From: Sycon ciliatum
Lineage: Eukaryota > Porifera > Calcarea > Leucosolenida > Sycettidae
Length of the DNA: 64,000 nucleotides
Direction of reading: 5' to 3'
NCBI RefSeq assembly: GCF_964019385.1
Contig: NC_088654.1
Span: forward strand, 12,802,200-12,866,199
The notes below the pieces were generated by a model that worked only from the letters and a program-made list of their open reading frames with translations, had not been told where the DNA came from and did no database searches. The stretch's first letter is position 1, and every line of letters starts with the position of its first letter. Below, one piece after another: positions 8,101-63,574 of this stretch. The translations under genes were made by a program, and so were the position numbers.

Positions 8101-10218
8101 GCTTGGAGTCACAGTTTGTAGCAGAGTTATCTTGCTATAGCCATGAGCTGGTCCTTTGTGTGGTTTGGGTGTGTGCTGAGGCAGACACACGCCTCTACAG
8201 AACATGAACCGACTACAGTCCATTCAGAAAAAGATGATATCCTAGCTTTTGGCCATAAATGGGTCAAATTTTGAGTTTTTGTCACTTTTTTTGGCAATCC
8301 CCCATGGAATGCTCTTCCAATTGTGTTTTTGAAGTCTATTTCTCCAAAGAGCAAGCCATAACAAGAATAGGATTTCGGCCAGGTTTTGCCCCCAAAGCAC
8401 TGAATTGGGGAAAAGCCATGGAAATTCAACCCGCGCACTCCACTTGCAGAACAGTACATTTGCGGTTCAAACCCCAGTTGAGGTATCTTTTTTGGACCCT
8501 TTTTCAATTTTCGAATCTCGCGGCACTGACAAAATCACCAAACTCTCCAGAGCCAGCGCTCATCCTTTTCTGAATGGACTGTAGTGGGGTAATTGCGACT
8601 ACATTTTCGTTGAATGGCGTGAAGAAACAGAGAAATCAACAAATGAGTAGAGGAGCACCACATTTTCACAAAGGGGGGGGGGGTCAATCAGAGTAGGGTG
8701 GCGCTGCCCCGCACTCCTTTGGCTAGAACCCTGGGATGGCTACAGTTGAGTCTGCGTGTACTGAGAAACTGAGAAATGTGCCTCTGCTTATCCCATTGTC
8801 ACTGACTCTGTAGGCTGCGCGAGGAACACGCACCGGAGACCGGGCAGCGGCTGGACTCCCTTATGGACACGCTGTGCAACGTGGCGGCGAGAACTGGTCG
8901 CAACGGCGGCAGCGCCGCCTTCTGTGCGTACGTGCCGACGGGCGGACTACTGCAGACGGCCGTGGCCGACCTGATCGCCGCCGCGCTGAACCGCTCCACG
9001 CCGCTGTTCATCTCTAACCCGGGCCTGGTGCAGCTGGAGTTCAACGCGCTGTCCTGGATGGCGCAGCTTGTGGGCTACGATCCGGACGTGGCGTTCGGCT
9101 CGTTCTCCTCCGGCGGCTCAATGGCCAACTTCATTGGCGTTCTCGTGGCACGGCGCAAGCACCTGCCGGAGGAGAATATAGCCACGGGCGCTGTCATGGC
9201 GACGAGTCAAACGCACAGCTGCATCGGCAAGGGCCTGATCATGGCCGGCTTACCTCGGTCATCACTCTGTCTCGTCGAGTGTGATGAAAAGCTCAGGATG
9301 TGTCCGGCAGCGTTGGAAAAGTGTATCGTGGCGCAGAGAAATGGCGGGCGTGTGCCGTTCCTGGTTGTGGCCAGTGCGGGCACGACGAGTACAGGAGCTG
9401 TCGATGATCTGCGAGCGCTGGCCAGCGTGTGCAAGCGTCATGGCGTGTGGCTTCATGTCGACGGTGTGTACGGTGCAGCGTTTAACCTGACGCAACGCGG
9501 TCGTGAGCAACTGGATGGCCTGGAAGAGGCCGACTCCATTGCCATAGACCTTCACAAGTCGTTCTTTCTGCCGCAGGCCACAGGACTGCTGATGGTCAAA
9601 GAGAGAGTCTACCTGAAGCAGGCATTCGCGCTCGATCATCAGCCGGCCTTCCTACCGGACGTAGACCAGGACGACCGGAACTTCCTGGACCACTCGCCGG
9701 ACCTGACGCGTCCGTGCTACGGCCTGCGTCTCTGGTTTCCGCTACAGCTGTGCGGCCTGGGCAGGTGGCGCGCGGCACTCGACGACCGGCTGGACTGGAC
9801 GGGCGAGTTTGCGGACGGTCTGCGGGCCATGGCCAGGATTGGCATCGAGCTGACGACCGAGCCCAGCCTTACAATTTTAACGTTTCGCTACGCACCCACA
9901 CATGAGGACGATAGCTCATCAGTCATGGCTGGCAATGTCAGTGCAGGTCAAGTTTCATCGGGCGTGTGCCGTTCGCAGCGGCTCCGCGACGCGAATCAGA
10001 AACTCCTCCGCTTCATCAACGGCCGTGATCACATTTTCTTGTCGAGCACGATCCTGCCCGGTGGTGAGGTGTTTGTCCTTCGCGCGTGCATTCTTCACGT
10101 CCGTCTCACGCGACAGCGGCTACTCGACGGACTGCAGGACATTCGCGATGGCGTTGCTGAGATACGTGCTTCAGCATCGGCTGCTGAGCTCACGGAGTCT
10201 ACCCAGGTGATTGAATGA
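5143..10218 (+). CDS. Group II PLP-dependent decarboxylase, copy A
   Basis: Predicted 523 residues in two exons: 5143-5309 and 8814-10218, joined in phase 2 (AGCAA|gtaaga ... tctgtag|GCTGCGC, giving Lys56). Fold-type I decarboxylase signs: the PLP-stacking His190 in SQTHSCIGKG, Asp272 in HVDGVYG for the pyridine nitrogen, and Lys304 in DLHKSFFLP for the Schiff base. FSSGGSMAN (about residue 153) matches the phosphate-binding loop. The family decarboxylates amino acids in the cytosol; the substrate is not deducible, since the Gly after Asp272 and the FFLPQATG loop differ from the usual aromatic and glutamate enzymes. ATG at 5143 is chosen because all three paralogues share MDEL at the same distance from the splice site. 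The 3.5-kb intron is packed with MITEs. An AATAAA lies at 10383-10388. Copies B and C follow. Confidence 0.92.
5493..5861. mobile_element. Foldback element in the decarboxylase A intron
   Basis: Arms of about 165 bp, partly diverged: the left contains GTGAATCAATAAA and CACGAGTAAATTG, the right the complements CAATTTACTCGTGG and TTTATTGATTC. Ends are GGTATGTCCGTCCCACTC-like and the complement of CCGTACCACTC. No coding content. Confidence 0.75.
5850..6160. mobile_element. Second foldback, overlapping the end of the first
   Basis: GGTACGGTCAATACGG followed by GGATTAGCAAGACGAA and TTCGCGTTCGC is inverted at 6108-6160 (GCGAACGCGAA, TTCGTCTCGCTAATCC, GTGACCGTACC). It shares the GGTACGGTC end with the neighbouring element, so the two probably belong to one family. 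Confidence 0.65.
6423..6827. mobile_element. Tc1/mariner/pogo-type MITE, host of a nested insertion
   Basis: Ends CAGTAAAACCTGTAACTAAC and the complement of TTTAGTCACAGGTTTTACTG, flanked by TA on both sides (6421-6422, 6828-6829). The right TIR is interrupted at 6614-6818 by a second MITE. It lies in the decarboxylase A intron. TA duplication and CAGT ends are typical of Tc1/mariner/pogo derivatives. Confidence 0.85.
6614..6818. mobile_element. MITE with a 7-bp TSD, nested in another MITE
   Basis: Ends CAAGAGTCCATAACCCCCAG and complement, with inner palindromic sequence (CATGAAAATGACGTAATG and its complement). The target duplication GTTTTAC occurs at 6607-6613 and 6819-6825. The host TIR shows the uninterrupted site has GTTTTAC once, which verifies the 7-bp duplication. 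Confidence 0.93.
7731..7904. mobile_element. Pogo/Tigger-like MITE
   Basis: 174 bp with ends CAGTGGAGATCGGATATAC and complement GATAAAACGACACTCC-side, flanked by TA (7729-7730, 7905-7906). Internal ATAACGACA-like motifs are typical of pogo/Tigger derivatives. It lies in the decarboxylase A intron; 6828-7730 otherwise shows no feature. Confidence 0.85.
8216..8581. mobile_element. Tc1/mariner-type MITE
   Basis: 366 bp with 22-bp ends CAGTCCATTCAGAAAAAGAT and CTTTTCTGAATGGACTG, flanked by TA (8214-8215, 8582-8583). No transposase. It lies in the decarboxylase A intron. Confidence 0.87.
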
Positions 10219-11032: not shown

Positions 11033-11203
11033 TTGAGTAGGCCCAAGTAGTGCCGGATGGCAGCCGTGAGTCAGTCAAGTGTCAAGTTCGGCCGGAACCG
11101 TATGTTCCTCTTCGGAACTACATAACTGGATACAAGAAGGTTCTCTGTGATGGGAGTCTGCACTTCTCAATACGTAATACTATGTAATTGCTTGATCCAA
11201 TGC

Positions 11204-11246
11204 TGTAGACAGCAAGCTGTTTCGGCTACTAGAGATCATCAGTACA
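11204..11246 (-). ncRNA. Hammerhead ribozyme, type I, weak stem II
   Basis: Minus strand: stem I TGTA/TACA, CTGATGA (11242-11236), GAA (11223-11221), stem III ACAGC-TT-GCTGT, and a GUC cleavage triplet ending at 11208. Stem II (11235-11224) is poorly paired. 10564-12637 otherwise has no supported protein gene. Confidence 0.7.
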
Positions 11247-12637: not shown

Positions 12638-14814
12638 ATGGACGAGCTTGGCATATCGCCCGAGTCCTTTCAGGAACTGTTGGAAAAAATCACTCCGTTG
12701 ATGCTGCAGTGCATTCGGGACATCGACGATGGGCCGACTTGCTTCATACGCTCACTGGAGGACAGCGCCGACTCCGTGGACTTGGCCAAGCAGCTAGCTG
12801 CAAAGTGAGACAACCAGTCCACACACTTTATTCTGCAGTCAGCAATGTACAGCACTGTATCTGTTTTGGACCGCGATCCAGAAGTTCCTGAGTGCATGAC
12901 GGGAACCTCGGAGTTGTGCAAACAATCATCATTCCTGTTTTACGATGGTCCTGAGATAATGTAACAATGGGTGCGTTCGATTACACACATTTCGGTTAAT
13001 TCTAGAATTAGTTATGACGGATGCACTGATCGATTACCCAAATTCCGTCGTCAGAATCGTCCCCCCGATTCTGAAGAGAGGGCGGAATTGCTAATTCTCC
13101 CGCCAGAATTGACGCACACGCCACGCTATAGGTTCACGTTTGCGCGAGGGTGTACGGGATCCCACGTGATCCCCTTTTACGATTTTTACGTGTAGTCGTT
13201 CGTTTACATGGCCGCAATCCCTTCATTCTGTTCCGATTCGAAAAATAATTACCTGGGTCCAGCATGTGTAATCGAAAGAGCCCAATGTATCACAGACGGG
13301 ACTGTAAAACTTGACTTTGAAAGGGCACGCATTTACACGATCATTTCAAGGGCATCACTAATATGGACTTTATGACGTGATTATTATCTAATTTCTGCAG
13401 CTAGTCAACTGTACGCATTTTATGATTCTCATGTTGTTCCCTGTCTTTATGCAGGGTCAAGGAGGAAAGTGTTCCGGAAACGGGGGAAGACGTCGCCGAC
13501 ATACTCCACGTGCTCTGCGACGTGGCCGCGCGCGGAGGAAAGAACAACGCGAGCGCCGGCTTCTGCGCGTACGTTCCCACCGGTGGTCTTCTGCAATCGG
13601 CCGTCATCGACCTCGTCAGCGCCATCCTGAACCGGGCCACGCCCCGCTTCCTGTCCAGCCCCGGTATGACGCAGATCGACTCGAACGTCATCGCGTGGAT
13701 GGCTAGTGTCGTCGGTTACGACCCAGCCAAATCGTTCGGCTCGTTCACATCCGGTGGCAGCATGGCTAACTTTGTCGGCATTCTGGCGGCGCGGCGCAAG
13801 TACCTTCCCGAGGAGCAGATCTCCCAGGGTGCTGTCATGGCGACGAGTCAAACGCACAGCTGCATCGGCAAGGGTCTGATCATGGCCGGTATACCTCGGT
13901 CATCACTCTGTCTCGTCGAGTGTGATGAAAAGCTCAGGATGTGTCCGGCGGCGCTAGAGAAGTGCATCGTGGCGCAACGAACTTCCGGTCGCAAGCCGTT
14001 CCTGGTGGTGGCAAGCGCTGGCACGACGAACACGGGAGCTGTAGACGATCTGCGTGCCGTGTCCGCAATCTGTCGGCGCCACGACGTGTGGCTGCATGTC
14101 GACGGTGTGTATGGCGCTGCGTTCAACCTGACACAATTCGGCCGTGAGCAACTGGATGGGCTGGAAGAGGCCGACTCCATTGCCATTGACCTTCACAAGT
14201 CATTCTTCCTGCCGCAGGCTACAGGATTGCTGATGGTCAAAGACAGATTCTACCTGAAGAATGCGTTCACTCATGATGTCCAGGCGCCATTCCTGCCAGA
14301 GTTAGCGGCCGAGGAGGACAATTTCCTGGATCTGTCTCCCGATTTGACGCGACCGCTCTATGGGCTGCGCCTCTGGTTTCCGTTAAAGCTATGCGGGATC
14401 AGGAAGTGGCGTGCGGCTCTGTATGAGAGGCTTGACTGGACGGCCGAGTTTGCCGACGGGTTGCGCAAGATGTCCGGCATCGGAGTTGAGCTGACGACAG
14501 AGCCCAGCCTGACAATTCTTACGTTCCGCTATGCACCACCAGCTGTCCAGTCACAAACAGCGGGCAGCAGTAGCGTTGTGCAACCAGCGCCGCAGGCGAG
14601 TACGGAGCGTCTCGCGTATCTGCGCACGGAGAACGAAAAGCTCCTCGTGTTCATCAACTGCCGTGGCACCATCTACCTGTCAGGGACGACTCTTCCAGAC
14701 GGCCGCTACGTGATCCGCGTGTGCGTTCTCAACATACGCCTCACGCACGGGCGGCTGATGAAAGGTCTCGCCGATATCTCCGACGGAGTGAAGCACATCG
14801 CAGCACATGTCTAG
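12638..14814 (+). CDS. Group II PLP-dependent decarboxylase, copy B
   Basis: Predicted 508 residues in exons 12638-12804 and 13455-14814, with the same phase-2 junction as copy A (GCAAA|gtgaga ... atgcag|GGTC). The active-site set is complete: SQTHSCIGKG, HVDGVYGAAF and Lys304 in DLHKSFFLP. An upstream in-frame ATG at 12620 adds six residues, but MDEL is the start shared by all three copies. The intron is only 650 bp and carries one MITE. Downstream, AATAAA occurs at 14959-14964. The copy is closer to C than to A in the variable C-terminal part (SGIGVELTTEPSLTILTFRY). Substrate unknown. Copies A and B are tandem, about 2.4 kb apart. Confidence 0.93.
12969..13283. mobile_element. MITE in the decarboxylase B intron
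   Basis: Ends GGGTGCGTTCGATTACACA and TGTGTAATCGAAAGAGCCC, flanked by the 3-bp direct repeat AAT (12966-12968, 13284-13286). A Harbinger-like origin is possible from the 3-bp duplication but not proven. Confidence 0.75.
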
Positions 14815-16038: not shown

Positions 16039-19000
16039 CTACAGCTGCTCTGCGATGTGCTTTGCTCCGTCGGAGATGTCGGTGAGGCCTTTCATCAGAC
16101 GTTCCCGTGTCAAGCGTATATTGAGTACGCAGACACGAATCACGTACCTGCTCCCGGGCAGTGTAGTGGCCGACAGAAAGATGTTGCCGCGGCGGTTGAT
16201 GAACACCAGGAGACGTTCGTTGACCTGGCGCAGATACGCGAGATGCTCCTCACTTTGCCGGTCTGGCTGCGTAGCGCCACGGTCACCCGTTGCTGCAGAA
16301 CCGACCGGTGGTGTGTAGCGGAACGTAAGAATTGTCAGGCTGGGCTCTGTCGTCAGATCAACTCCGATGCCGGACATCTTGCGCAACCCGTCGGTAAACT
16401 CGGCCGTCCAGTCAAGCCTATCGTCCAGAGCCGTACGCCACTTCCCGATCCCGCACAGCTTTAACGGAAACCAGAGGCGCAGCCCATAGCAGGGCCGCGT
16501 CAAATCGGGAGACATATCCATGAAATTGTCTTCCTCTGCCGCCACATGCGGGAGGAACGGCGCGTGGACATCATGGGTGAACGCGTTCTTCAGGTAGAAT
16601 CTCTCCCTGACCAGCAATAACCCTGTTACTGTTGGCAGAAAGAATGACTTGTGAAGGTCTATGGCAATGGAGTCGGCCTCTTCCAGGCCATCCAGTAGCT
16701 CACGACCGCGTTGCGTCAGGTTAAATGCTGCACCGTACACACCGTCAACATGCAGCCACACATCATGGCAACGACAGATTGCCGATATGGCGCGCAGATC
16801 ATCGACGGCTCCCGTGTTCGTCGTGCCTCCGCTTGCTACCACCAGGAACGGCTTGTGACCGGAACTTCGTTGCGCCTTGATGCACTTCTCTAACGCCGCT
16901 GGACACATCCTGAGCTTTTCATCACACTCGACGAGACAGAGTGATGACCGAGGTATGCCGGCCATGATCAGACCCTTGCCGATGCAGCTGTGTGTTTGAC
17001 TAGTTGCCATGACAGCGCCCTGGGAGATCTGTTCCTCTCGAAGGTACTTACGACGCGCCGCCAGAATTCCTATAAAGTTGGCCATGGAGCCACCTGACGT
17101 GAAGGATCCAAACGACGTGACGGGGTCGTACCCGACAACACTAGCCATCCACGCGATGACGTTCGACTCGATCTGCACCATGCCGGGGCTCAGCAGGAAG
17201 AGCGGTGTCACCCGATTCAGGATGAGACTGACCATCTCCAGGATCACAGCGTGAAGCAAACCACCGATGGGAACGTATGCGCAGAAGCCTGCACTGCCGC
17301 TGTTGACTCCTCCACGAGCGGCAACATTGCAGAGCGAATCCAGTATGTCGGCAATCGCTTTCCCCGTTTCTGGGACCCTCTCCTCTTTCATTCTGCGCAC
17401 ACATAATCCAGAATGACATCACAGAGAAGCAAACAGAAAGATCGTACTCACTAGGATCATTTATATAGTACGCAACCCGTCTTTGTTGTCCTACAAAGAC
17501 AACCGCATAGACTGACACGCTATGACGTGCCAGCATCTCCAGAGCGCAACTGCCAGTATCTCCACACAGTGGAATTTTTGGAGCAATATCCGCCAATGGG
17601 TAGTTACTGGTCGTTGCCCTGGATAGCTGCCAACACAACAAAACACCTATTTAAAAAAGTGTCCAGTAGCCTGGGGCAGGGGTGGGCGGATCATGCTTGG
17701 AGGAGAAATGCACCTCCTGCGGAGCACCGAAATGGTGGCTGCAATTTCCTGGTTCATTCACGTGTACCAGAAAACGGAGCGTGTCTAATGAAGAGCGTCG
17801 TGTATAAGGCAAGAGTCACCACAGGTCCGAAGAAGAATGAATATGCTGGATTAACAGCAACAACATTCAAAAAACGCTAGCATAACGACCAATCATCATT
17901 CCGCCACAGACAACACGGGAAGGACACCCGCCTATCGCAGTACGTCTGGACAAAGAAGGATGAAGGGAAAGCATGTAGCATTCAATGGGCAGTCCACTGC
18001 AAAGCTGTGACCTACAACAACAAAAGCAAAAGGTGCGACTTTTGCCTGGCGGACATTTTGGCAATCGCGCAAACACCCAAGCATCTCTCTCTCTTAATTA
18101 AGTAATTAGTTAACAAGAGGAGTGAACTTGTGTCAAAGTGTCACCACGAGAATAAGTACTACCTTCGGAACTTCAAACCATCCACATGCATCACCTAAAC
18201 AAGTACCAGACAACCGGCTCCAGTGCGTGTCACTTGAAGTAAATGTAGAATTTTCACCACTGCTGTCATTCACACCTTTCACTTTCAAAGTCATGCCGCG
18301 ATGCAATCTTTCACAACTGTCATTTAGACTCATTTTACACTTTGGCTTTGTGGGTCCATAAACCAGTATCCAGCGTTACTCATTACTGGTCATTGTTCTC
18401 TGATAAGTGCGTGAAACTCGGAGTAAAAACATTAATTATTTTGTTTGAACAAACGGCGAGGAAATACAAATTGCAATTTCAAATTTGGACTTCACGGAGA
18501 ATTTCAAAGTTTTAGGAAACTAGAGACCACATGCCACGTACTGCTCTTTTCTCTCCGAAACTCAACACTTGCAAGCCAGATATGAAAGAAAGAAAAAATC
18601 ATCAGTCACACCACCAGGACCCGGGGACCCGGTGGTGTGACTGATGATTTTTTCTTTCTTTCATATCTGGCTTGCAAGTGTTGAGTTTCGGAGAGAAAAG
18701 AGCAGTACGTGGCATGTGGCCTCTAGTTTCCTAAAACGGCGAGGAGACAACAATTTGATAACCGCAATCAGTAGGTAATACAAGCTGGATCGACATTTGT
18801 GTACACTGTATTCATGTATTGTAAAACTGTGGAGACAATGTGCAATAAAACGATGAAAATTTTGTTCATCCCCTTATTATTTGCGCCAGTATACCCAATG
18901 CTGTAGCCAGCTAGTTTTAAAACAAAATGCAGAATTTTGAAAATTTCCTGTGGTTTTAAAGCGTTTTAACTTTAAGTCAGCCGGACTACTAAGTACTAGT

Positions 19001-20339: not shown

Positions 20340-20558
20340 TAACTCTCCTCCTCCATGCGCTCTAAACTTAAAGCCGACCATTGCTACCCTCGGTAGCCAT
20401 TACTCACACCAATAACTTCAAACAACGAAGGGGTCACGGGTAAAACATTTCCTTCTGACAGCTGTTTCGCCTATCAAACGCTCGTCAGAGAAGGTGATAC
20501 TGATAGTGTAATTGACATTGCAATGGTCGGCTTTAGAGCGCATGGATGAGGAGAGTTA
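20340..20558. mobile_element. MITE carrying a hammerhead ribozyme in its loop
   Basis: Inverted ends TAACTCTCCTCCTCCATGCG...AAGCCGACCATTG and the complement at 20521-20558, with a TA at each outer end. The left arm has a 6-bp insertion. The hammerhead at 20451-20494 lies in the loop between the arms. 19688-20339 has no gene; 20559-21306 likewise. Confidence 0.8.
20451..20494 (-). ncRNA. Hammerhead ribozyme, type I
   Basis: Minus strand: stem I CCTTCT (20494-20489) pairs perfectly with AGAAGG (20456-20451). Core CTGACGA is at 20488-20482. Stem II is GC/GC closing a 9-nt loop (20481-20469). GAA is at 20468-20466. Stem III is AC/GT around AGCT with A15.1-U16.1 intact, and the cleavage triplet GUC ends at 20457. 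All invariant positions are present. Confidence 0.87.
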
Positions 20559-21306: not shown

Positions 21307-22918
21307 TTGCAACAGGAGGAAAATTTCCTTCTGCCAGCGGAGAGGGCTCAACACAATAATGTGGAGCACTATGTAGCCAATATGGTTCCCATCCACAAGC
21401 GCAAGGCCAAGGGCGATGTCCGTAATTATCGACCAGTCTCCTTGCTCTGTATAGTATCCAAGGTGATGGAAAGAATAGTCAACCAGCAGCTCATCAGCCA
21501 TCTCAACAGCAATACCCTCCTGTCTGCCAACCAGTTTGGCTTTCGGAAATCAATCGGCACAGCTGACCTACTAACGTCGCTCCAGCATGAATGGGCTTTA
21601 ACCACCAGCAAGGGCGGAACCATTCAGGCCCTCGCCATAGACATAGCAGGCGCGTTTGACCGGGTTTCACACCCTGGGCTCCTCTTGCAAGCTTCGAGGC
21701 TATGGCATTGGTGGGCAACTGCTGGCCTGGTTAACATCGTACCTCCAGAACCGGAAGCTGCAAGCTGTTGTTGGGGGACAGACCTCTACCCCTCTACCAT
21801 CCGGTCAGGCGTCCCTCAGGGCAGCATCCTAGAGCCCACATTGTTTCTAGTATACATAAACGACGCCGAAGATCAGCTACCTGCCAGCGTCTCCATTGCC
21901 GTGTATGCTGATGATACTACGTTATACACGTCTGTCATGCCTGGACAGACCACAGAGGCCGCCGCAGCTGCACTTCAGACAGCCGTGAACCAGCTGGAAG
22001 CCTGGGGAAGTACTTGGAGGGTTACCTTTGAGCCCTCTAAGTCACAGCTGATGTCCGTGACCAGGAAGCTGGCCCCTCCAGACTTCCCCCCTGTCCAATT
22101 CCTTGGCACCCCTGTTCCTGTCAGCAGCCAGTTGAAGCTCCTTGGGGTGGTGTTCGACGAGAAGCTCAACTTCAGCGCCCACCTCCACCAGCTTTCTGTG
22201 CGCGCACATCAACGCCTCCATTTCATGCGGAAGGCAGCACCCATCCTGGACGCTGCTGGACGCCTAACCGTCTATAAGGGCTTTGTAAGGCCCATACTTG
22301 AGTATGCCCCACTAGCCTGGCTTGGTGCTGGCCAGACCCACCTTGGGAAGTTGGACACAGCACAGCGCAAGGCCATGCAGATGATAGGACCCACCACCGT
22401 CCTCCAGAGTCTGCGCGCCAGACGGACGGTCGCAGGGCTGTCCTATCTCTACAAGGTAGTTAACTGCAAGGGCCCACCCCGTCTGACACGCATGCGCCCT
22501 CCCCCAAAACCACGGGCCGATACTGTTCGAACCCGCCAGCAGCATTATGTTCAGCGCCAGCACCGGGCACAGCTCTTAAACACCACCCCCGGCACCAGTC
22601 CCGACTACCTTCGACGTTCCTTCCCGTACTGTTTCCTTGAATTGTGGAACAGCCTCCCCGAGGACGTCTTTCCCCGTCTGGCCAATCACTCTCCACTCAC
22701 AGCTTTTAAAAAAGGTGTCGACAAACACATCTCAGACTAGCCATGGTCTTGGGACGTGCTTTGAAGCCCATCATGTTGATCGTCTCACTGTTCTTTCCAG
22801 ATCGCACCTCTCGGTTTGGGGATGTGCATTGAAGCACCCCGTACTAACGGTCTATACTGTCCTCTCTTGGTCACCACTCTCCCTATTACCTATATAGTAA
22901 TTAATAATAATAATAATA
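21307..22918 (+). mobile_element. 5'-truncated LINE reverse transcriptase
   Basis: A 477-codon frame (21307-22740) holds reverse-transcriptase blocks: NYRPVSLLCIVSKVMERIV, ANQFGFRK, AIDIAGAFDRVSH, SGVPQGSILEP, the catalytic YADD, and the thumb end AYRPILEYAPL-like region with LWNSLP. It is followed by a short 3' UTR ending in (TAA)n near 22900-22918. Between about 21688 and 21797 the frame is shifted: the other frame reads GYGIGGQLLAWL and NRKLQAVVGG, so two compensating indels disable it. The N-terminal endonuclease is missing. The style suggests a Jockey/CR1-type element; clade not settled. Confidence 0.9.
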
Positions 22919-26434: not shown

Positions 26435-26950
26435 TTACCCACGCTTCGGAATGCGCTTGAAGTAGAAGGAGATCTCATCATAGCTGGACAGGCAAAACGA
26501 CAGGTTGGCGTAGCAGTAGGCCACCAGCTCCGTGGTGGCGCGGCGCAACGCAGCAATTCGCTCCCACGCACGCTGGCTGAACCTCATCTCCGGCGTTTTG
26601 TCCTTGGCCAGGGCGTTACGGATGCGAGCCATCTTAGCGTCGTCCGGTAGGATGTGGAACATTGAGATACCTCTCTTCACCAACTTCTGGAATTTGTTAC
26701 GGTAGAAGGCGCATACGTTATCCAAGATCAGCACTTCTCCCTTGTAGTCCAGTGTAGGAGTGATTGGACTATAGCACAAGCGCGCGATCGTCCTGATCGA
26801 CTCAGCGTATAAGTCGAGTCCGGGCCCGTGGCGTGAAAGCTGGTCACCGTCATCTGCTGTCGTCTGCTCTGCTGCAGCCACCAGCAATATCAGTAACAGC
26901 ACCGGCTTGGAAACGAGGATGGCCGCCATAGGACGGCTGCCTGGGGCCAT
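26435..26950 (-). CDS. Small secreted four-Cys protein, member 1
   Basis: 171 residues, single visible exon, start MAPGSRPMAA at 26950 (an ATG three codons upstream at 26959 is also in frame). A signal peptide is clear (VLLLILLVAAAEQTTA). The mature part has four Cys in the family pattern (ARLC, DNVC, VAYC, LSFC) and the conserved blocks C.xYR.KF.K.V.RG and NLS.C, the latter an N-glycosylation sequon. Predicted mostly helical. It is diverged from members 2 and 3 but clearly homologous over the full length. It lies head-to-head with member 2, start codons 0.9 kb apart. No known domain recognised; a helical cytokine-like or other secreted ligand would fit the shape but is speculation. The stop TAA sits in GTGGGTAAA, which could also be a splice donor. 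Confidence 0.7.
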   Translation of the reverse strand: MAPGSRPMAAILVSKPVLLLILLVAAAEQTTADDGDQLSRHGPGLDLYAESIRTIARLCYSPITPTLDYKGEVLILDNVCAFYRNKFQKLVKRGISMFHILPDDAKMARIRNALAKDKTPEMRFSQRAWERIAALRRATTELVAYCYANLSFCLSSYDEISFYFKRIPKRG

Positions 26951-27854
26951 GCTGAACACAGAATGGTAGAACTTGTAAAATGCGCAACGTCGACGGCAGC
27001 TTTCACTCTGCTGAAAGGTCCCCGCACTTGCACGGCTGCTGCGAGTCTTGTCACGAATAGGGCGAACAATTCACAAGGCCGACTATTATCATTGATTATT
27101 AGGGCAACCCGCGAACGTCGGTAGTCTGTGGTCGGTGTGGCCACACGCCAAATCCTACGGCGGCGCACAACACAAGTGTGGAGAAACTATAGTAGACCCG
27201 TCCGGCACTACAATTGTACGTGTGTCCCCTGCCTGGAGAGTAGATGCCAAGCAACGCGTCAAATAATTACGATACCACGGCAAGGCCAGCTAGGTGGCGG
27301 GGAGCTGTCAGGCACCGGTATTTTGACGAACCTGGCTGCAAAGTATCGAGAGTGGATCTACTCTTGAAAGTATCCATTGAGCTCCTGAATACTACAAATA
27401 GTAGTGGTCTACACGTAGTGGAGTCTACTGACGTACTGTGTTGTAGAAAAAAGCCCTACAAAGCAGCCTAACCATAACCCATCAGGTACTGTGCACGCAT
27501 GTGCAGTGTACTGTATGGTATAATCGGGCCCTGTCGCGTCTCAATACCTTTCATGGGTTCTATACTTTGCAGCCATATTTAGAGGTTTTTGTACGGGTGT
27601 AGTCCAAGTCGGGTTCCAGCGAGTCTGGAGACGACAGGCACAAAATACAAGCTCCCAGTCGGGCACTCGCAGTTCAATTATTATTTGCTGCAGAAATCTT
27701 ACTTTGCCAGCTTGGTGCATGCGCCAGCCAGTGCATGTGGCCGTGGTGTTAATTAATAATAATTGTCCTCAAGTCACGAAAAAAACCTTGATTGCTTATT
27801 CTATTATCCCGCCGGGACCCGGGAGTACGAGTGTTGCGCAGGAGGCAGGAAAGG
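26951..27854. promoter_or_regulatory. Putative bidirectional promoter interval
   Basis: The 0.9 kb between the divergent starts of members 1 and 2 must contain both promoters. No TATA box or other motif could be assigned with confidence, and no coding frame in it resembles a protein. Confidence 0.4.
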
Positions 27855-28352
27855 ATGGCCGGGACAAGAAAGCAGATGGCTCCGTGGACGTGGGCGGGTG
27901 TGAGTGTTGTCCTGCTCATGATCTTAGTAGTTGCCGGATCAGTCAATGGTGACGACTTCGAGTCGTGGAGTCTTATACCCGTCGCCGTGGACGAGTTTGT
28001 GGAGGCGACGAAGACAATCACCGAAATCTGCCATCAACAAAGATTGATACTGAGGGACTGCGAATGGTACCGGAGCAAGTTCCACAAAGTGGTGGGTCGA
28101 GGACTCAAACTCTTCCCTAGTGCGTCAGATCAAAAGAAAGCGGATCAGTTGTTGGCGCAGGTGCAAGTACTTGCAAGCCGTGTTTCGCCTATGATGACAG
28201 CCAGCAAAAGTCGCGCAGATACCAAGGCCGTCTTGCAGCATGCAACACTGCAGCTTGTCTCGTTCTGTTTTACGAACCTGTCCGTCTGCCAAGTGCCATA
28301 TATCCTCAACCGTCTGGATGCGAATTTCCTCGCCCGAGCATACCGTGGGTAA
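27855..28352 (+). CDS. Small secreted four-Cys protein, member 2
   Basis: 165 residues from ATG at 27855 (context AGGATGGCC; the longer frame starts at 27792). Signal peptide VSVVLLMILVVAGSVNG, cleavage probably before DDF. The mature part carries Cys in TEIC, LRDC, VSFC and LSVC, the block CEWYRSKFHKVVGRG, and the conserved sequon NLS. It is closely related to member 3 (46.8 kb) and distantly to member 1. The frame ends in CGTGGGTAATCG; all three members end in ..RG then GTGGGTA(A/G), so either the stop is conserved or this is a splice donor to an unseen exon. Function unknown; no homologous family recognised. Confidence 0.72.
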   Translation: MAGTRKQMAPWTWAGVSVVLLMILVVAGSVNGDDFESWSLIPVAVDEFVEATKTITEICHQQRLILRDCEWYRSKFHKVVGRGLKLFPSASDQKKADQLLAQVQVLASRVSPMMTASKSRADTKAVLQHATLQLVSFCFTNLSVCQVPYILNRLDANFLARAYRG

Positions 28353-29450
28353 TCGCCAGGCGCCACTTTCCATACTTGGTGAGGGTTCTGGATGGTTTTT
28401 TTTCTCTATGACAGCTCACGCAGAACGGTCACTGCCTGCATATGGAAGCAAACTACTGAGTATGCGCGAATAAGCTGCACTAAATTCAGCTGATAGTATC
28501 AGGGTTTGCTTGGCGCGTTATGAACGGAGTTGTGCCTTTGTAATTGCTTTGTAATTATTTTTATTGTAAAGTAGAGGTTGGTGCACTTCCCCAATTTTTT
28601 TTATTGTTTAAGGATTCCTGGAAATGGCCAAAGGCTTTGGCCCGTCGAGGGGTTTCCCCAGCTTTCCATGGTACGAAGCATAGGACAATGGGTTGTTGCT
28701 GACAGTTCAGATGCGCCAAACACAGAACCAAAACTCGTTTCTATCAAGTATACCTATTGCTGTTCTCTTGCATGAACTGCCCTCACCCAATGCTGCGGTA
28801 TCTTATAAATCCATCCATGAGTTCTCTTCTAAGGGTTCGCAAACTCCGTTGCAGCCATTTACGTAGTGATTTTTGATTTGTTTGTCCAAACACTCACATG
28901 AGGTTTGGTCTCGCTGCTGCAATAGTTAGTCATGCGGCTCACTCTATTATTTTTTCGAACATCCCTTTCTCATGTCGGCGCGATGATTTTGTCTGGTTGC
29001 AATTATTATTTTGTGAGCTTTTGATTTCATTTTGTCCTTCTGCTTTTGATTTCATTTGTCCTTTAGATTTTGATTTCATTTGTCCTTCTGCTTTCATGTG
29101 TCCTTCTGCTTCTGGTTTCATTTGTCCTTCTGCCCGGCTGCATGTGGTATTAATTTAGTCACTCTGACTTAATCATGATAGCAATTGAGCGGGCAAAAAA
29201 ACGTAAAATTCTTCATCCCCTTCCTTTTCTTTGAGTAAGTTCTATACTTTTATTTTCATGCGTTTCGCTTCCTTCATTGGTTTGTCTTATCGGTTCCTGG
29301 GTTAAATTGAGAGATTGCTAACTTAACTCCAGCAAAATTCGTTACTGTTTGGCATGAACGGTTCACTTTCCAAATATATGCTTCAACGTACATGTACGTA
29401 CGGATGCAGCGGATTGGGTATTCGGTTTTTTATCACTTGTTGGTTAGTCT
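27880..29450 (+). repeat. Segmental duplication, copy 1
   Basis: From about 27880 to 29450 the sequence matches 46866-48469 in the same order: the member 2 coding region, its 3' flank, a short tandem repeat and the TTCAACGTACATGTACGTAC segment. Similarity stops abruptly at CACTTGTTGG. 29451-30329 shows no gene. Confidence 0.88.
29018..29130 (+). repeat. 21-24-bp tandem repeat (VNTR)
   Basis: About five units of TTTTGATTTCATTTGTCCTT plus a short tail. The duplicated copy at 48025-48117 has about four units, so the copy number changed after the duplication. Confidence 0.8.
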
Positions 29451-30329: not shown

Positions 30330-30374
30330 CGTGTGGACAGAACTAGTTCGTCCTTTGTGGACTCATCAGCGCAG
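30330..30374 (-). ncRNA. Decayed hammerhead ribozyme, sister of 49436-49481
   Basis: Minus strand: CTGCG, CTGATGA (30369-30363), perfect stem II GTCC-ACAAA-GGAC and GAA are kept, but stem III (CTAGTTCTG) and the 3' half of stem I no longer pair. The flank (CGCAGCACAGAGGAAAT..) matches the intact copy. 30375-30641 has no gene. Confidence 0.65.
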
Positions 30375-30648
30375 CACAGAGGAAATAAGGCCGAAGCCGA
30401 TGGCAATGAAAATAATCGCAATGATCATTCCCGTGCATTTTATATCTCCCACATTGATTTTAGTTCACATGTGATATTGATACTGAACACTGAGCAAACA
30501 TCAGAAGGACTTGAATTGGGCATTATGTACAGTCACGTACATGTACATGTTCATGATTGTACAATGTGCATCACTGAACTCTAATGAACACTCAATCTTC
30601 AATCACATTATACATACCTGTCAGGATGGGCATTCTTTTTCTTATTCA

Positions 30649-46627: not shown

Positions 46628-46864
46628 TTAGAGTAATGACCATCCAGCACTGGTGTTGATCTCTGGGCCTTTGTTTCTGATCTCCACTGCCTCTCGCAAT
46701 TTGCGGCTTGCCCTGTCACTGGCTCTTGCAACCACAGACATTGCCGAGAAGATGCTGTCCCCGACACCTAGGTTGATCCCTGCATGCTTAGCTCGCATGT
46801 GGTCACCCCATGGCTTATCCACAGTGCGCCTACGAGCTTCACCGTTGTGTTCCTCCAGTCTTGT
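46628..46864 (-). pseudogene. Penelope-like element C-terminal fragment
   Basis: Minus-strand frame: TRLEEHNGEARRRTVDKPW, GDHMRAKHAG, then REAVEIRNKGPEIN and SAGWSLL. The end E-A-x-x-I-R...P.x.N...G...L is the usual close of GIY-YIG domains in Penelope-like elements. The fragment ends exactly where similarity to the secreted-protein duplication begins. Confidence 0.6.
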
Positions 46865-47337
46865 CTCCGTGGACGTGGGCGGGCGTGAGTGTTGTCCTGC
46901 TCATGATCTTGGCAGTTGCCGGATCAGTCAATGGTGACGACTTTGAGTCGTGGAGTCCATTACCCGCCGCTGTGGATCAGTTTGTGGAGGCGACGAAGAC
47001 AATCACCGAAATCTGCCATCTACAAAGATTGATAGTGAGTGACTGCGAATGGTACCAGGGCAAGTTCCGCAAAGTGGTGCGTCGAGGATTCAAACTCTTC
47101 CCTGGTTCATCAGATCACGAGAAAGCGAATCAGTTGTTGGCGCAGGTACAAGTACGTGCAAGACATGTTTCGCCTATGATGCCAGCCAGCAAAAGTGACG
47201 CAGATACCAGGGCCGCCTTGCAGCATGCAACACTTCAGCTTGTCTCGTTCTGTTTTACAAACCTGTCCGTCTGCAAAGTGCCATATATCCTCAACCGTTT
47301 GGATGCGAATTTCCTCGCCCAAGCATTCCGTGGGTAG
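46810..47337 (+). CDS. Small secreted four-Cys protein, member 3 (5' end replaced)
   Basis: Closely related to member 2 from WTWAGVSVVLLMILAVAGSV to the C-terminus (FLAQAFRG), with all four Cys, the CEWYQGKFRKVVRRG block and the NLS sequon kept. The original first nine or ten codons of member 2 are missing: homology begins at about 46866, right at a Penelope-like fragment. The open frame now starts at 46810 inside that fragment and gives a chimeric N-terminus (MAYPQCAYEL). The signal-peptide core survives, so it could still be secreted if this start is used; otherwise it is a pseudogene. No internal stop or frameshift. Confidence 0.6.
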   Translation: MAYPQCAYELHRCVPPVLSPWTWAGVSVVLLMILAVAGSVNGDDFESWSPLPAAVDQFVEATKTITEICHLQRLIVSDCEWYQGKFRKVVRRGFKLFPGSSDHEKANQLLAQVQVRARHVSPMMPASKSDADTRAALQHATLQLVSFCFTNLSVCKVPYILNRLDANFLAQAFRG

Positions 47338-48469
47338 GCGCCAGGCGCCACTTTCCATACTTGGCGAGGGTTCTTGATGGTTTTTTATTCTCTATGACAG
47401 CTCACGCAGAATGGTCACTGCCTGCCTATGGAAGCAAACTACTGAGTATGCGTGAATAAGCAGCAATATATTCAGCTGATAGTATCAGGGTTTACTTGGC
47501 GTGTTATGAACATAGTTGTGCCTTTGTAATTGCTTTGTTATTATTTTTATTGTGAAGAAGAGGTTGGTGCACTTCCCCAATTATTTTTTAATTATTTTTA
47601 TGGATTCCCCGAAACTGCCAAAGGCTTTCGCTTTTCGGGGGGTTCCCCATCGTACCAAGCATAGGATAATGGGTTGTGTCTGACAGTTCAGATGCGCCAA
47701 ACACTGAACCAAAACTCGTTTCTTTCAAGTATACCTACTGGTGTTCTCTTGCATGAACTGCCCTCACCCAATGCTGCGGTATTAATTTCTATAAATCCCT
47801 CCATGAGTTCTCTTCTAAGGGCTCGCAAACTCCGTTGCAGCCATTTACGTAGTGATTTAGTTTTGTTCGTCCAAACACTCACATGAGGTTTGGTGTCGCT
47901 GCTGCAATAGTTAGTCATGTGACTGCAATCGTTAGTCATGTGACTCACTCTAGTCTTTTTTCCAACATCCCTTTCTCATGTCGGCGCGATCATTCTGTCT
48001 GTTTGCTATAATTATTTTGTGAGCTTTTGATTTCATTTTGTCCTTCTGCTTTTGATTTCATTTGTCCTTTAGATTTTGATTTCATTTGTCCTTTAGCTTT
48101 TGATTTCATTTGTCCTTCCGCCCGGCCGCATATGGTTCACTGTAGTAATAATTAACGTTTGTTACTATCTCTTTTCTTTAAGACAGTCACTCTGACTTAA
48201 TCCTGATAGCGATTGAGCGGGCAAAAAACATCAAATTCTTCATCTTCTTCCTTTTCTTTGAGTAAGTTCTATACTTATATTTTCATCCGTTTCGCTTCCA
48301 TCATTGGTTTGTATTATCGGTTCCTGGGTTGAATTGAGAGATTGGTAACTTAACTCCAACGAAATTCGTTACTGTTTGGCAGGAACGGTTCACTTCTCAA
48401 ATATGCTTCAACGTACATGTACGTACGGATGCAGCGGATTGGGTATTCGGTTTTTTATCACTTGTTGGC
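46866..48469 (+). repeat. Segmental duplication, copy 2
   Basis: Matches 27880-29450. It ends at CACTTGTTGG and continues with GCAGGTCAGTCTGATTGATT, which matches the flank at 40226. 48025-48117 carries the four-unit VNTR. Confidence 0.88.
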
Positions 48470-48903: not shown

Positions 48904-49435
48904 ATCACCTCCCATGATTATTAATTCTAGGGTTGTGCTCAAATATTGTAATAGGGTCGAGCAGTTTAATTCCACGACAAAGCATTGGCTTCTCAGCACC
49001 ACTTGTTATGAATATCCACTGGTGAACGTGGCAAGAAAGTTGATTCTAGAAACCCTCGGGCGCAACTTAGAAGTATGTAAACATTTTTTTGGTGTTGTTT
49101 CAAATCTTTTTATCTCGCGTTGTTCAATTCTTTATTCTCACGATGGCACAATCGCCGATATGAGATAGTTGTTGATGTTGTTTGTGTTGTATACGTTGTT
49201 TATAGCGGGAATCAAAACAGGCTCAGCAATGGACCCACTGGGAAAAGAATTTAAAAGATGGCACGGAAAGGTAGAGTGAAAGAAAGTGAAGGTTGGTTTT
49301 CTAACGAACAGATATCTATCCAGTTGTTTTTGCTGTCGTTTACTGGTGAGCTATCGAAACCCTACCTAGCTGAAAATGTATACGACAAGGCTTGAGATTT
49401 GAAATCGTAAATATTTATATAATTTAATACTCAAT

Positions 49436-49481
49436 CTGCGGACAGCATGCTGTTTCGTTCTTTGTGAACTCATCAGCGCAG
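49436..49481 (-). ncRNA. Hammerhead ribozyme, type I, complete
   Basis: Minus strand: stem I CTGCG (49481-49477) pairs with CGCAG (49440-49436); CTGATGA at 49476-49470; stem II GTTC-ACAAA-GAAC; GAA at 49456-49454; stem III ACAGC-AT-GCTGT; GUC triplet ending at 49441. Every invariant base and all three helices are present. 48901-49435 shows no gene. Confidence 0.92.
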
Positions 49482-49981
49482 CACAGAGGAAATGAGGCCG
49501 AACCTGATAGCAATGAAAATAAAAATGTCCAATCAGGCCCGAACGTATAATATAATTTAATAGTAAGACATCGTACTACAGTAGTTGTAATGTGGAAAAA
49601 TGTGGGCACTGGTGTTGCCATCCAGTCCACCATAGGCCTTGGCGGATAATGCCGGCAGAAAAATTGGCAGAATTCGGTACTTTTTCTGGTAGGTTTCATG
49701 CATGTTTGGTATGTGGATAAAGAAATGGAGCAGAATTCGAGGAATTGCACGCCATAAGGTTTGTATGGTTCTGCCAATTTCACTGCTTTTCGAGCAGAAT
49801 CTGCCACCTTTTCGAGCATTATCCGTCAGGGCCTAGCCTAGTCCACCAGCTAAACCAGATGTTCAACAGTCAGACGTGCAGAGTTTTGTGCTAGATTTGT
49901 GCTAGATTTGTGCCCAAATTTCTCCATGTTACAATTTTTACCTTGGCTCACACACAATATTTTAATAGTATAGGCAATTAC

Positions 49982-55385: not shown

Positions 55386-63574
<8,189 letters not shown>

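Follow-up and report, generated by a model that had tools for sequence, protein, structure and literature searches.

The occurrence of a type I hammerhead ribozyme in a 64,000-nucleotide (nt) stretch of the calcareous sponge Sycon ciliatum (contig NC_088654.1, positions 12,802,200 to 12,866,199; hereafter the window, meaning the whole stretch of DNA that was analysed) raises the question of which element carries the ribozyme and which enzyme copied that element. The hammerhead was found to form the 3' end of a truncated insert of a retrozyme, a short element that encodes no protein, and our comparison of insert ends and RNA hairpins across the 538-megabase host genome makes it likely that the enzymes of Penelope-like elements (PLEs) copy retrozyme RNA, which is probably circular, starting internally at a site adjacent to a bulged hairpin. 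The features of the window from which this argument starts are as follows.

49436 to 49481, minus strand: type I hammerhead ribozyme, with the predicted cut between 49441 and 49440.
49430 to 49547, minus strand: insert of retrozyme family A, truncated on its 5' side at monomer position 122 by alignment to the 228-nt unit.
49429 to 49430, minus strand: 3' junction GAG / TA, the putative start of reverse transcription, 11–15 nt past the predicted cut.
49417 to 49429, minus strand: 3' copy of the target-site duplication, TATTAAATTATAT, directly after the terminal GAG.
49550 to 49562, minus strand: 5' copy of the target-site duplication, TATTAAATTATAT.
30332 to 30415, minus strand: hammerhead piece, subfamily 2, whose stem II is compensatory and whose stems I and III are damaged; it lies within another transposon.

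On the minus strand, the core segments CUGAUGA, GAA and GUC of the window hammerhead are all present, and reading of the sequence gave a stem I of 5 base pairs (bp; CUGCG/CGCAG) and a stem II of 4 bp (GUUC-ACAAA-GAAC). The features of the type I class, namely a CUGANGA...GAA core, A15.1-U16.1, an NUH site and three helices of which II and III are closed, were all found, and the positions and helices given in a preliminary description of this DNA were where it had placed them. That description had read stem III, ACAGCAUGCUGU, a 12-mer that is a perfect palindrome, as 5 bp with a 2-nt loop; the pairing segment stands, but 4 bp closed by a CAUG loop is the better reading, because a 2-nt loop is sterically unlikely. 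It had also held a chance occurrence to be very unlikely; a comparable motif scan gave 2 matches in 60 Markov-1 sequences of 64 kilobases (kb) on both strands, and stem II shows a compensatory change from GUUC/GAAC to GUCC/GGAC between retrozyme subfamilies. A search of the window against Rfam gave no match at the gathering score for this hammerhead. The best match, Hammerhead_HH9 (RF02275), scored 28.1 bits, where the gathering score is 52, yet with a significant E value (0.0071 over 64 kb and 2.2e-5 over a 201-nt stretch), so that the covariance-model search suggested earlier as a check gave an ambiguous answer. Units of the same family elsewhere in the genome score 23–33 bits with this model, and the Rfam matches to microRNA families and tmRNA were below the gathering score. 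As far as the sequence goes, the hammerhead is thus confirmed as real and complete, and its self-cleavage is predicted. Another hammerhead-like core, at 20488 on the minus strand, has a 6-bp stem I and only 2 bp in stem II.

The insert is a single unit piece of about 118 nt that matches the 228-nt unit at 98.4% identity in an alignment extending through a shared TATT (49426–49547), and its target-site duplication is 13 nt long. An open reading frame (ORF) with reverse transcriptase (RT) and GIY-YIG endonuclease is absent from the window element and present in co-resident elements. The window copy is a dead retrozyme relic, which alone is unable to release a monomer. Of the kinds of element considered in the preliminary description, a dispersed family of the retrozyme kind is therefore retained, whereas a Penelope element is not, this 118-nt piece of a 228-nt unit having no ORF. 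The supposed sister copy near 30330 proved decayed and related (86% identity over 86 nt at 30332–30415), but it sits as a hitchhiker in a different, larger transposon, since 22 further loci share both flanks of the surrounding repeat, mostly from about 29445 to beyond 32000 and at 92–98%; within the window, the repeat carrying this subfamily 2 fragment runs from 29443 to beyond 32000. A tandem duplication as the origin of both window copies was rejected, because the intervening sequence is unalignable and the 30330 copy lies in another transposon. An 86% duplication (27877–29443 and 46862–48468) is situated about 900 nt from both hammerhead copies; it carries an ORF of about 180 amino acids without a Pfam match, and the ORF at 26435–27070 on the minus strand resembles that ORF by eye.

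To place the insert in its family, we searched the genome with 141 nt around the window hammerhead, which gave at least 74 matches over many contigs (the best 40 of 981 candidates were scored). Thirty loci, from which 20 overlapping ones had been excluded beforehand, and two window regions were aligned to the circular family A unit. Many copies lie head to tail at a spacing of 228 nt, with 11 hammerheads at locus L031 and 13 full units at L075, a locus of an older subfamily. A second family, C, has a 236-nt unit and a hammerhead with GGCC/GGCC, includes L034:1-577 and is also represented in the window.

11197 to 11246, minus strand: decayed fragment of family C with a hammerhead remnant, 88.5% identical.

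Exact target duplications outside pure AT repeats were found at L032 (9 nt), L048 (14 nt), L049 (12 nt) and L050 (7 nt); L047 shows none, and many other flanks are AT repeats, where duplications are unjudgeable. By eye, the inserts abut the flanking DNA directly at both ends, no search having been aimed at a long terminal repeat (LTR), primer binding site or polypurine tract. With short tandem hammerhead units of 228 and 236 nt, inside the range of about 150–450 bp that marks the class, with dispersal and with target duplications of more than 4 bp, the element behind the window hammerhead is best read as a non-autonomous metazoan non-LTR retrozyme, of a known kind. The head-to-tail arrays at L031 and L075 could also be expected of satellite DNA grown by unequal crossing-over or slippage with the hammerhead as a passenger, a reading made highly improbable by the dispersal of copies over many contigs, the target duplications, and the fixed 3' ends and varied 5' truncation described below.

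Several observations on these loci may be added. Two further hammerhead motifs with good stems are present in L028/L045 and L014. Inverted pairs of arrays whose 5' ends point at each other over a short AT tract occur at L031:1121-3890 and L034:577-2262 and could be explained by copying from both DNA strands or by two insertions, and at L030 and L035 retrozyme 3' ends face each other.

The 3' ends of the inserts are fixed. In the main family A set, from which the decayed 30330 copy was excluded, all 39 inserts end 13–15 nt past the predicted cut (25 at 14, nine at 15 and five at 13), a count reduced in weight by a query that held the 3' junction of the window and its AT-rich flank and so favours loci ending there, and by the restriction to the best candidates. 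Two family A sets are free of this bias. The seven subfamily 2 loci retrieved with the 30330 copy have their ends at 13, 13, 14, 15, 15, 10 and 10, and five of the six retrozymes in stretches anchored on Penelope ORFs end at 14, the sixth running off its stretch; together, 10 of 12 ends lie at 13–15. In family C, which was searched with a bare unit, 38 of 41 arrays end at 13–17. The 5' ends, on the other hand, are scattered in 38 of the family A inserts, with one more at the edge of its stretch. A self-cleaved linear RNA as the template was rejected, as the 5' pile-up that it predicts at the cut is absent and the ends are there at chance level only: 2 of 38 (family A) and 1 of 36 (family C, in which five more arrays have no judged 5' end) fall within 5 nt of the hammerhead cut. 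The fixed 3' end, the varied 5' truncation and the target duplications point to target-primed reverse transcription starting inside the unit, and a start past the cut implies that the template there was ligated or uncut. The flank after the terminal GAG begins with TA in 38 of the 39 main-set inserts; therefore, TA(T) may be common to the RNA and its target.

Whether the template was a circle or an uncut linear multimer was addressed by comparing units within arrays. In the 11 uninterrupted arrays with at least two full units, 3 of 176 array-by-diagnostic-site cells were mixed, against about 105 expected by random draw. The mean within-array difference was 0–0.8 in eight of the 11 arrays and 4.0, 4.7 and 12.9 in L036, L042 and L075, respectively, and the between-array median was 8. 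Four segments judged composite from irregular unit lengths or nested breaks (L026, L030, the minus-strand L038 and L043; three have at least two units) were excluded from this comparison. When the composites and L075 are included, the within-array mean becomes 13.8 and the median 8, no lower than the between-array mean of 8.7 and median of 8. Near-identical units fit repeated passes round one circle, although homogeneous parent arrays could mimic this. The same element might be copied by the same Penelope enzyme from an uncut linear multimer, so that the hammerhead would be dispensable for copying. Insert ends past the cut are predicted equally well by such a template, and the available text of one study (PMC11167929) reports that the Anolis Penelope protein accepted unprocessed RNA in vitro and that hammerhead mutants left insertion unchanged. 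We regard the linear multimer as a doubtful template, however, because units within an array are nearly alike despite a diverse family and because circles were abundant in the animals tested, according to what is accessible of PMC7229834.

A possible source of the enzyme was found beside the retrozymes. Minimal hammerheads with a stem III of ACUCnnAGU occur near several of them, and in L035 and L021 such hammerheads follow the ends of ORFs that have a cysteine-rich and YIG..NH pattern, which we take to be Penelope-like. When the genome was searched with one of these ORFs, at least 150 matches were obtained (the best 150 of 2790 candidates), in identity groups from 100 down to 50%. Stretches were then picked by identity group, 18 of them lying 3' of Penelope ORFs and 13 lying 5' of long ORFs. 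Searches of the Penelope ORFs against Pfam, NCBIfam and PDB sequences gave no useful match except GIY-YIG in L081, the ORF of which passes the Pfam cut-off. By hhalign, three Penelope ORFs match L081/L082 (probability 91, E 1e-6), and it is on the motifs and this profile match that we name the ORFs Penelope; in addition, the family 7 frame carries the RT-like motifs FYPSI and YRDD. The window holds a fossil of this group, which ends about 10 nt before the hairpin position.

57228 to 57490, plus strand: PLE family 5 fragment, 82% identical, with its own complete minimal hammerhead at 57412–57453 (cleavage after GUA).

The tails of these PLEs share with the retrozymes a bulged hairpin. After the hammerhead, the Penelope tails have the module GCUC - inner stem - loop - inner stem - UU - GAGC - (A/C)CUnU, and the retrozymes have GCUC-stem-loop-stem-UU-GAGC-ACUCU. 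Both retrozyme families carry TTGAGCACTCT twice, spaced 67 nt in A and 64 nt in C, and in Penelope families 1 and 8 a second hairpin follows 63 and 61 nt further on. The hairpin was found, after the element's own hammerhead, in seven of the eight L021-group Penelope families with a readable tail; family 3 (L091, L092, L105, L106) stands outside this count, having short tails 3' of its ORF and 5' stretches without a complete leader. The tails that bear it, together with a related hairpin in the window, are listed here.

Family 1 (L085, L087), family 2 (L090), the L035 type and family 5 (L095, L108): hairpin-bearing Penelope tails.
Family 6 (L109, with the bulge UUU), family 7 (L111, L112) and family 8 (L113, L114): further hairpin-bearing Penelope tails.
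21341 to 21367, minus strand: Penelope-type bulged hairpin, in a 58-nt stretch (21314–21371) 90% identical to the tail of the L046 minimal-hammerhead element.

The stretch 21314–21371 overlaps the start of an RT ORF frame at 21307–22740.

The pairing of the hairpin is kept while its sequence varies. Over 13 hairpins with four inner pairs each and 10 distinct 5' strands, 49 of 52 inner pairs are formed, against a shuffle mean of 26.0, and none of 20,000 shuffles was as high. Among the seven hairpins that came to light only once the motif was defined, 27 of 28 pairs are formed; hairpin 2 of Penelope family 1 pairs three of four positions, and the family 7 stems of L111 and L112 differ by a pairing-preserving change. 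Pairs were counted by script because the MAFFT alignment misplaced the short hairpins, and the L033 anchor (three of four pairs), hairpin 2 of retrozyme C and nested alternatives were excluded from the table of 13. As a background, 150 Markov sequences of 64 kb on both strands gave 11 sequence anchors, none with four inner pairs. Rfam at E 0.1 gave nothing at the hairpin in four Penelope stretches (L085, L090, L108, L112). L081, the first long GIY-YIG ORF found, was rejected as a copying partner, as it has no matching hairpin. The order hammerhead, start, hairpin 1, hairpin 2 is identical in retrozymes and PLEs, which would also be expected if retrozymes were derived from a Penelope leader and the hairpin had no current role; with stem pairing kept while sequence varies between families, and with insert ends adjoining the hairpin, likeness by descent only seems improbable to us.

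The insert ends of both kinds of element indeed lie beside this hairpin. All 12 short Penelope ends, in seven families and judged against the complete tail of their own family, stop 3–10 nt before hairpin 1 (short ends of families 3 and 4, which have no reference tail, were excluded). Retrozyme A ends 2–4 nt before its hairpin 1, except for the two copies that end at 10, which stop 7 nt short of it, and retrozyme C ends 1–5 nt before, with one overrun. Each of the nine families compared has a GUA 3–7 nt ahead of the hairpin, in five of them as part of UUGnGUA. Of the long Penelope ends, three (L021, L085, L095) allowed a comparison, and all stop 3–6 nt short of the second GCTC, so that each hairpin would have its own start site; in family 5, hairpin 2 was not seen in full. 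Internal initiation past the hammerhead, as deduced from the insert ends, is a trait common with Penelope elements and does not make the retrozymes members of them.

Targets are also common to the two. Retrozyme A lies within 851 nt in 5 of the 18 Penelope-ORF stretches (L086, L088, L090, L092, L101) and in 1 of the 13 of the second set (L106), and in L086 and L092 a single AT tract separates the retrozyme and Penelope 3' ends, which point towards each other; by our estimate, fewer than 0.1 such co-locations are expected in 18 stretches even at a guessed 3000 retrozyme loci. Long interspersed nuclear elements (LINEs) also produce target duplications and 5' truncation, and the RT ORF at 21307–22740 lies within the window, so another non-LTR enzyme of the LINE type might copy the retrozymes, with the hairpin likeness due to convergence or chance. 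Retrozymes and PLEs share, however, the start site, a hairpin with the same 2-nt bulge (3 nt in family 6), a CU-rich flanking end, a similar spacing of two hairpins, AT tracts as common targets and compensated inner stems, and copying by a LINE enzyme is accordingly quite improbable.

Several points weigh against copying by Penelope enzymes at the hairpin. The case draws on one genome and on sequence comparison, and Pfam and NCBIfam profiles fail to recognise these Penelope ORFs. The canonical hairpin is absent from the tails of Penelope family 4 (L093, L107), the distant GIY-YIG element L081/L082 is without the motif, and the hairpin of the L046 element, whose ORF was not seen, is degenerate. 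In retrozyme C, two of the four inner positions of hairpin 1 are paired, and hairpin 2 keeps GAGCACUCU but pairs poorly. No observed retrozyme insert ends at its second hairpin, whereas Penelope inserts do, and of the 41 family C arrays, one ends at 21 and for two no terminal piece was reported.

Taken together, we propose the following cycle. Retrozyme arrays would be transcribed, and their hammerheads would cut the RNA to 228-nt monomers, which a host ligase may close into circles, as published work on other animals suggests. A Penelope-like RT/GIY-YIG protein would bind the bulged hairpin or hairpins on the RNA and nick AT-rich DNA, as has been published for Penelope proteins. Reverse transcription would then start internally, at or next to GUA and a few nt before hairpin 1, the place at which inserts of two retrozyme and seven Penelope families end. 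Copying would pass through the hammerhead site, ligated or uncut, and repeated rounds on a circle would yield near-identical tandem units; it would stop at varied points, giving the 5' truncation, and leave a target duplication, such as is seen at some loci. The window copy would be one short, dead product of this cycle. As a more general statement, which we hold to be reasonably probable, the hairpin, often present twice and directly 3' of GUA, may be the initiation signal of a large Penelope group, one per start site, and animal retrozymes may be circular-RNA parasites carrying that signal, one PLE enzyme rolling round the circle to make tandem copies.

The remaining features of the window concern other sequences. 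Three related frames lie at 8806–10218 (plus), 13426–14814 (plus) and 16039–17418 (minus), the first of which matches pyridoxal-dependent decarboxylase in Pfam, and an inverted repeat at 60904–61774 has 400-nt arms that are 95% complementary and 71 nt apart.

Metazoan non-LTR retrozymes have already been described (Cervera and de la Pena 2020, PMC7229834), and the available text of that paper names PLEs as a strong candidate partner from their hammerheads, tandem copies and co-occurrence. The window family is like the retrozymes portrayed there in its type I hammerhead, in tandem units of a class spanning about 170–400 nt, in encoding no protein and in target duplications of more than 4 bp, and the retrozymes portrayed there have no LTR; the fixed start and Penelope-type hairpin of the present families are not mentioned in the accessible part of that source. 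According to the portion seen of a 2020 review (PMC7761336), animal retrozyme repeats have no conserved motif that would help to deduce the partner. For the Anolis Penelope protein, the accessible text of Frangieh 2024 (PMC11167929) describes an internal start at two adjacent sites, the interval between which is the genomic 'tail', and a preference for AT-rich DNA. The Sycon elements resemble that element, Poseidon, which has a hammerhead near the 5' end of its ORF, two start sites, AT-rich targets, tandem arrangement and initiation past the hammerhead, and the window element differs from it in having no ORF. By description, short repeats with type I hammerheads also liken it to SMalpha/W of Schistosoma (in the text available of PMC8490949) and to the newt satellite hammerheads (as cited in that of PMC7229834). 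Our literature search, which covered open-access titles and abstracts, with subscription papers and supplements outside it, gave no report of a common hairpin module, nor is the motif mentioned in the accessible text of PMC3846280 or PMC12910113.

The window hammerhead is ordinary in kind, and the sequence evidence connecting animal retrozymes with Penelope enzymes through a common RNA initiation module is new, as far as the searches go. The start site, hairpin and target common to two retrozyme and seven Penelope families provide a concrete candidate partner for the retrozymes. The module offers an RNA signal that may account for internal initiation and for the Penelope 'tail', and the 3' ends of inserts become evidence on whether RNA circles serve as templates in vivo.
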